54,809 nt of DNA from Candidatus Woesearchaeota archaeon. Its GTDB lineage: Archaea > Nanobdellota > Nanobdellia > Woesearchaeales > GW2011-AR9. How positions within the stretch are numbered: position 1 is the first letter of the stretch; each line of letters begins with the position of its first letter. The notes beneath the pieces are model-generated. The model had not been told where the DNA came from, ran no database searches, and worked only from the letters and a program-made list of their open reading frames with translations. The stretch spans positions 1-54,809 of the forward strand of contig JACPND010000018.1 of NCBI GenBank assembly GCA_016185625.1. Reading direction: 5' to 3'. This document shows, piece by piece, positions 11,869-36,251 of this stretch. The position numbers were made by a program, and so were the translations under genes.

Positions 11869-11902
11869 TTTTATAAAAGAACAGTTACTTTTTCTTTTCG
11901 AT

Positions 11903-12058
11903 GTGGGCGTGCCGGAGTGGCCAATGTGCTGTTGCACGGCTTAACGGGATAGACTCAAGGTACGGGGATGATGAGTGCTCGGTGGAGTGCTATGACTAAA
12001 CCCATATAAGTCATCTATTGGCTTAGTGCCTACGCAGGTTCGAATCCTGCCGCCCACA
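11903..12058 (+). tRNA. tRNA-Leu(CAA) with two introns (11925-11943 in D-loop; 11960-12012 at 37/38)
   Basis: Acceptor GTGGGCG/CGCCCAC; D-stem CCG/CGG once 19 nt removed; anticodon stem ATAGA/TCTAT, loop CTCAAG|A; T-arm GCAGG TTCGAAT CCTGC; class II variable arm; upstream TTTTATAAAAG. Confidence 0.9.
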
Positions 12059-36147: not shown

Positions 36148-36251
36148 CGGGGCTGCCCGGATTCGAACCGGGGTTCAATGGTTTCTTTCGCTTACATCTA
36201 TGGACATAAGCACCCAAACCATTAGTGATAGCCAGGCTACACTACAGCCCC
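36148..36251 (-). tRNA. tRNA-Pro(TGG) with a 30-nt intron at 37/38 (36183-36212)
   Basis: Acceptor GGGGCTG/CAGCCCC; anticodon stem AATGG/CCATT; loop TTTGGG|A; T-arm CCCGG TTCGAAT CCGGG. Confidence 0.9.

Follow-up and report, generated by a model that had tools for sequence, protein, structure and literature searches.

Two short inserts interrupt a putative tRNA-Leu(CAA) gene at positions 11903-12058 (+ strand) of the window, the whole stretch of 54,809 nucleotides analysed here, and the question raised by this locus is whether such a gene can be functional, given that one insert, of only 19 nt, splits the D-arm. This window forms contig 13 in the 1.16 Mb genome of a small symbiont-type archaeon of the Woesearchaeota (DPANN), for which completeness is rated at 100%. 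On the sequence evidence set out below, we think that the locus is very probably a functional single-copy tRNA-Leu(CAA) gene with two protein-spliced introns, the one in the D-loop lying in an HBh' motif.

Anatomy of the tRNA-Leu(CAA) gene

Reading the sequence directly gives the following layout, all on the + strand. Exon 1 (11903-11924) carries the 5' strand of the acceptor stem, the 5' half of the D-arm and the D-loop up to A21, ending in GGCCAA, with a D-arm identical to that of intronless orthologues. The 19-nt insert (TGTGCTGTTGCACGGCTTA, 11925-11943) consists of T, the hairpin GTGC(TGTT)GCAC (helix h'), GGCT (one strand of helix H) and TA, its GGCT pairing with the exon GGCC at 11919-11922. 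Exon 2 (11944-11959) contributes the 3' strand of the D-stem, the 5' strand of the anticodon stem, the anticodon CAA and G37, as placed by the ARAGORN cloverleaf of the spliced form. A second insert of 53 nt (GTACGGGG...ATATAAGTC, 11960-12012) separates it from exon 3 (12013-12058), which holds A38, the 3' strand of the anticodon stem, the variable arm, the T-arm, the 3' strand of the acceptor stem and the discriminator A; CCA is not encoded. Taking out the 19 nt leaves a normal type II D-arm, and taking out the 53 nt closes the anticodon stem (ATAGA/TCTAT) around the anticodon CAA. With perfect pairing in the acceptor stem (GTGGGCG/CGCCCAC) and the T-stem (GCAGG/CCTGC), all stems are intact in the spliced form. 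A TATA-box-like sequence, TTTATAAAAG, which would act as such, lies at 11870-11879 (+), 24-33 nt upstream of the tRNA 5' end, and similar TTTATAAAA boxes are found upstream of several tRNA-Leu(CAA) orthologues.

The identity of the gene emerges only when the D-loop insert is removed. A default ARAGORN scan of the window found nothing; with anticodon-loop introns allowed, the precursor was called Asn and the form lacking only the 53-nt insert was called Ser, but either form without the 19 nt was called Leu(CAA). The preliminary description, made from the sequence alone, had proposed a tRNA-Leu(CAA) with two introns and a D-arm that folds only without the 19 nt; the stems and the ARAGORN calls on the spliced forms bear out both proposals, the second of which is reinforced by orthologues that have no insert. 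The Rfam tRNA search of the window gave no tRNA match in the focal stretch, returning just the other tRNA of the window, at 36148-36251 (- strand), which is probably a Pro(UGG) whose anticodon loop holds an intron of about 30 nt. A weak match of the tmRNA model to the focal stretch uses the acceptor and T-arm, and we set it aside, attributing it to the ends of the tRNA.

That standard gene finders miss the gene would be in keeping with a decaying pseudogene in which the 19 nt are a chance insertion. We regard this as most improbable, since the spliced form retains every stem, a TATA-like box is present, the same insert architecture occurs in 18 families (see below) and no other tRNA-Leu(CAA) was found in this genome, which is rated complete. 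The preliminary description had raised the possibility of another intact tRNA-Leu(CAA) that would leave this one a pseudogene; none was found in the genome, where the CAA pattern occurs once, and a search of the genome for a continuous Leu D-arm with up to 3 mismatches returned only the paralogues tRNA-Leu(CAG) and tRNA-Leu(UAG), whose D-arms are continuous.

Other tRNA genes of the same genome

Interrupted tRNA genes are the norm among those examined in this genome. Our inventory is partial, comprising the 23 genes that could be delimited; many picks of the T-arm pattern were chance matches. Delimited by eye, 22 of these 23 genes (loci L001-L020, L184 and L195) are interrupted, only tRNA-Leu(UAG) being continuous; several hold two introns, the T-loop (59/60) being a frequent site. 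D-loop inserts with the same layout as that of tRNA-Leu(CAA), drawn by hand, occur in tRNA-Pro(GGG) (19 nt; GTCT-AGA-GATC-TGAC-GATC-GGAC-AAC) and in tRNA-Ala(CGC) (15 nt; GCCT-GGA-GT-GAAA-AC-GGGC-AAT).

Two further observations concern these genes. The 59/60 introns are found in the Asp, Lys, Val(UAC), Gly, Met and other tRNAs; most of their 3' ends read GAA-RG^T, and several are alike in sequence. Just downstream of tRNA-Leu(CAG), a fragment (locus L193; contig C11, 24810-24845 and 24902-24942) repeats the 3' end of that gene and adjoins a hairpin-rich intergenic repeat that is also seen near other tRNA genes.

Comparative evidence for excision of the D-loop insert

We compared orthologous genes within the family using the pattern GGAGYGGYCAAN{0,30}ACGGGAYRGACTCAA, which matched in 21 of the 51 family genomes and gave 0 matches when reversed. 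Seventeen of the 21 orthologues have an insert of 0 nt and read exactly GGYCAA|ACGGG across the site; the remaining four carry 19-21 nt at the same spot. The insert is thus exactly absent from 17 intronless orthologues with identical flanks, and the spliced form of the focal gene is a canonical tRNA-Leu(CAA).

A wider pattern, GGAGYGGYCAAN{10,40}ACGGGRYN{1,2}G, which imposes no pairing, was run on 359 genomes of the order; it recovered 45 D-loop inserts of 14-40 nt in 41 genomes from 18 families, and 0 matches in the reversed control. In 40 of the 45 inserts, the four intron bases whose last lies 2 nt ahead of the 3' cut are fully paired to exon GGYC (18-20a), as against a mean of 0.8 and a maximum of 5 in 2000 rounds for shuffled inserts and 0-1 for slid registers. 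Exon position 20 (C/T) covaries with the intron base that it faces (G/A) in the ratio 25:2:1:16 (Fisher p = 6e-9), a p value that is nominal since related genomes are not fully independent, but one drawn from many families with hairpin sequences that differ freely. The intron hairpin itself amounts to 181 bp in total over the 45 inserts, compared with 28.5 expected, and when the focal insert is shuffled just 0.14% of the resulting sequences satisfy both helix requirements. Compact D-loop introns of 14-22 nt in tRNA-Leu recur across the Woesearchaeales, the shortest inserts in the order being 14 nt (genome G265) and 15 nt (G350, with a UUCG loop).

The conserved pairing bears on whether the 19 nt, including GTGCTGTTGCAC, might instead persist after maturation as a hairpin that extends the D-loop. 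In favour of this, the insert forms a stable hairpin locally, and additional tRNA helices are known from elsewhere. In nearly all inserts, however, exon G18-G19-Y20-C20a is taken up in the last helix, so that G18 and G19 would be kept from their T-loop contacts. Both of these bases are required for D-loop/T-loop contacts in mature tRNA, so pairing of the intron with exon G18-C20a is expected in the precursor only. Moreover, the covarying pairing keeps strict register with the 2-nt/1-nt bulge geometry of EndA sites, and the insert is cleanly absent in relatives. Retention is therefore very unlikely in our judgement, and for the 19 nt, whose retention the preliminary description had named as the outcome that would overturn its reading, exact presence or absence in orthologues and covariation in 45 inserts argue strongly for excision.

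The D-loop and 37/38 introns have been gained or lost independently of one another: one orthologue (G005) has the D-loop intron only, two (G007 and G065) have neither, and most relatives have the 37/38 intron only. Other tRNA-Leu(CAA) orthologues, at loci L040 (G030), L033 (G003), L031/L175 (G020), L034, L038, L039 and L044, have extra introns, which interrupt the variable arm, the T-loop and the anticodon stem, with three introns in one gene in G020.

Structure and proposed removal of the D-loop intron

An unconstrained minimum free energy fold of the whole precursor contains the GGCC/GGCT helix, the bulge AAT, the hairpin GTGC(TGTT)GCAC and the D-stem. In this fold the 5' splice site, AA^U, is a true 3-nt bulge, and the 3' splice site, UA^A (TA^A in the DNA), is a triplet inside an internal loop, opposite unpaired G13-A14-G15-U16. 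A strict bulge is thus seen at the 5' site only, the 3' triplet facing unpaired G13-U16, which makes this an HBh' motif of the relaxed kind and not a full or strict BHB: the 4-bp exon-intron central helix, GGCC/GGCU, is present, and 3-nt bulges with a cut after the second nucleotide agree with HBh' but not with a strict BHB, the outer helix and the 3' bulge standing alone between helices that define the latter being absent. What had been put forward as a compact BHB-like motif with 3-nt bulges AAT and TAA thus holds for both helices and for the 5' bulge, but the 3' TAA belongs to the internal loop.

We propose the following course of splicing. In the transcribed precursor, intron GGCU would pair with exon GGCC (G18-C20a) as the 4-bp central helix, which the 3-nt bulge AA^U would part from the 4-bp intron hairpin, with the 3' site UA^A placed just before the D-stem. 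EndA would cut each triplet after its second base, and RtcB would join A21 to A22, producing the D-loop GGCCAAACGGG as in intronless relatives; the exact cut may shift by one base (A|A), which leaves the mature sequence unchanged. The 37/38 intron would be removed likewise, from a BHB with one C-A mismatch.

The 37/38 intron

The 53-nt intron is canonical, lying one nucleotide past the anticodon (CTCAAG^G...TC^A). Its 4-bp central helix pairs CTCA with TAAG (11954-11957 with 12007-12010) apart from one C34-A mismatch, and is flanked by the bulges AGG and TCA. The helix, its bulges and the mismatch had been described beforehand; the mismatch is real and is kept in most relatives, others having TGAG instead and hence a fully paired helix. 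The intron is absent from the orthologues in G005, G007 and G065.

Comparison with the 37/38 introns of 24 other tRNA-Leu(CAA) genes shows an invariant AUGA, a conserved core (GAGU-GAUGA / GAUGA-NNA-ACUC) and a conserved inner hairpin with compensatory changes among the genes. This is more than splicing requires and could represent a site for a binding partner or a guide element. We considered a box C/D guide because of a GUGAUGA-like motif but do not propose one, as the D box (CUGA) is not conserved.

Splicing enzymes

The genome encodes RtcB and a 215-aa EndA (contig C18) with the Tyr-His-Lys catalytic triad (PF01974, E = 3e-14). The nearest PDB relative of this EndA is Nanoarchaeum equitans NEQ205 (3iey_A, E = 1e-38), and its nearest named relatives come from Woesearchaeota and Nanoarchaeota (DPANN) MAGs, several of them from groundwater. 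It is the only PF01974/PF02778 gene in the genome, and a single gene of 215 aa fits the size of about 170-215 aa of the alpha-4 homotetrameric type, to which it may belong. A weak second PF01974 match, on contig C29 (13 bits), was discarded as a candidate beta subunit: it is a small, repetitive 80-aa ORF that shows no endonuclease similarity in Pfam. Counted from the table, about 314 of the 325 genomes of the order with an EndA match have one and about 11 have two, fragments accounting for some of the latter; for the 38 tabulated genomes with D-loop introns the figures are 34 with one, two with two and two with none detected. The PF01974 search thus gave no evident beta subunit, the second, structural subunit of (alpha-beta)2 enzymes, in this genome or in the 325, bar the roughly 11 with two matches. 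Nor does the enzyme carry the Crenarchaea-specific loop (CSL), an insertion with a conserved Lys near the active site that is present in A. pernix: a gap of about nine residues takes its place in our EndA and in sampled relatives.

Loop-less single-subunit EndA has been reviewed as narrow in specificity, acting on strict BHB motifs (PMC6379350), and it is this, together with a 3' site that lies in an internal loop, that casts doubt on splicing of the D-loop intron. A passage of PMC12397907 leads to two options: either the single-gene EndA has a wider specificity than its class, or it has a partner that went undetected. We lean, by a little, towards the first, in which the single-gene, loop-less EndA of Woesearchaeales would itself be broad, serving as sole cutter and removing relaxed HBh' D-loop introns as short as 14-19 nt. 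If true, this would contradict the accepted rule by which an enzyme needs either a beta subunit or one of the CSL/ASL loops to be broad in specificity, and it would also account for a spread of tRNA introns across this DPANN order that has gone unreported. The second option, a variant of our preferred explanation and not exclusive of it, is that the insert is spliced but that a second, divergent subunit or an accessory protein widens the specificity of EndA. The single-copy gene without the CSL speaks in its favour, but we think it rather unlikely, as a NEQ261-like beta subunit should match PF01974 just as the local EndA does, with the outcome given above for the 325 genomes, and no accessory factor has been identified.

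Comparison with known systems

Taken singly, the gene is one more tRNA with D-loop and 37/38 introns, and its weight lies in the context. D-loop (20/21) and 59/60 introns, two or three per gene, are established in archaea (PMC4090602, PMC8450103), and archaeal tRNA introns measure 11-129 nt, the medians being 12-25 nt (PMC4090602). A gene with two introns, one of them in the D-loop and 19 nt long, accordingly stays inside the known archaeal range, and the emphasis of the preliminary description on "only" 19 nt falls away. A literature search, which took in few of the subscription journals, found no paper on such introns in Woesearchaeota, and this intron-rich lineage, with its unexpected type of enzyme, seems undescribed. 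With many noncanonical tRNA introns in a large DPANN order, gene finders miss essential tRNAs, as the sole tRNA-Leu(CAA) was missed here by default ARAGORN and Rfam; the 45 aligned D-loop introns could serve to train improved tRNA gene finders for archaea. Since the Woesearchaeales EndA lacks all the features that have been linked with broad specificity to date, the model of co-evolution between EndA type and intron diversity can be put directly to the test, using a recombinant enzyme together with a substrate about 157 nt long.

The closest parallel for the intron itself is found in Thermoproteales and other Crenarchaeota, whose noncanonical introns (D-loop 20/21, 59/60, up to three per gene) share the D-loop site, co-occurrence with a 37/38 intron, a 4-bp central helix with a 3-nt bulge, and a similar length (PMC4090602, PMC8450103). 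Here, by contrast, the host belongs to the DPANN, EndA is a single gene without the CSL, and compact 14-22-nt D-loop introns recur in the tRNA-Leu of the order. The abundance of introns resembles that of the Asgard Atabeyarchaeia and Freyarchaeia, a different phylum, where 92-95% of tRNA genes are reported to be interrupted, many noncanonically and several times per gene (PMC11291895). Nanoarchaeum equitans, a distantly related DPANN archaeon with split and intron-containing tRNAs, provides the nearest solved EndA relative, but its enzyme (NEQ205/NEQ261) is an (alpha-beta)2, and no beta subunit was found here. The homotetrameric EndA of Methanocaldococcus jannaschii (1a79) is like ours in having a single subunit, no specific loop and a Tyr-His-Lys triad; it is, however, reviewed as narrow and confined to strict BHB motifs (PMC6379350), whereas the Woesearchaeales studied here are rich in relaxed ones.
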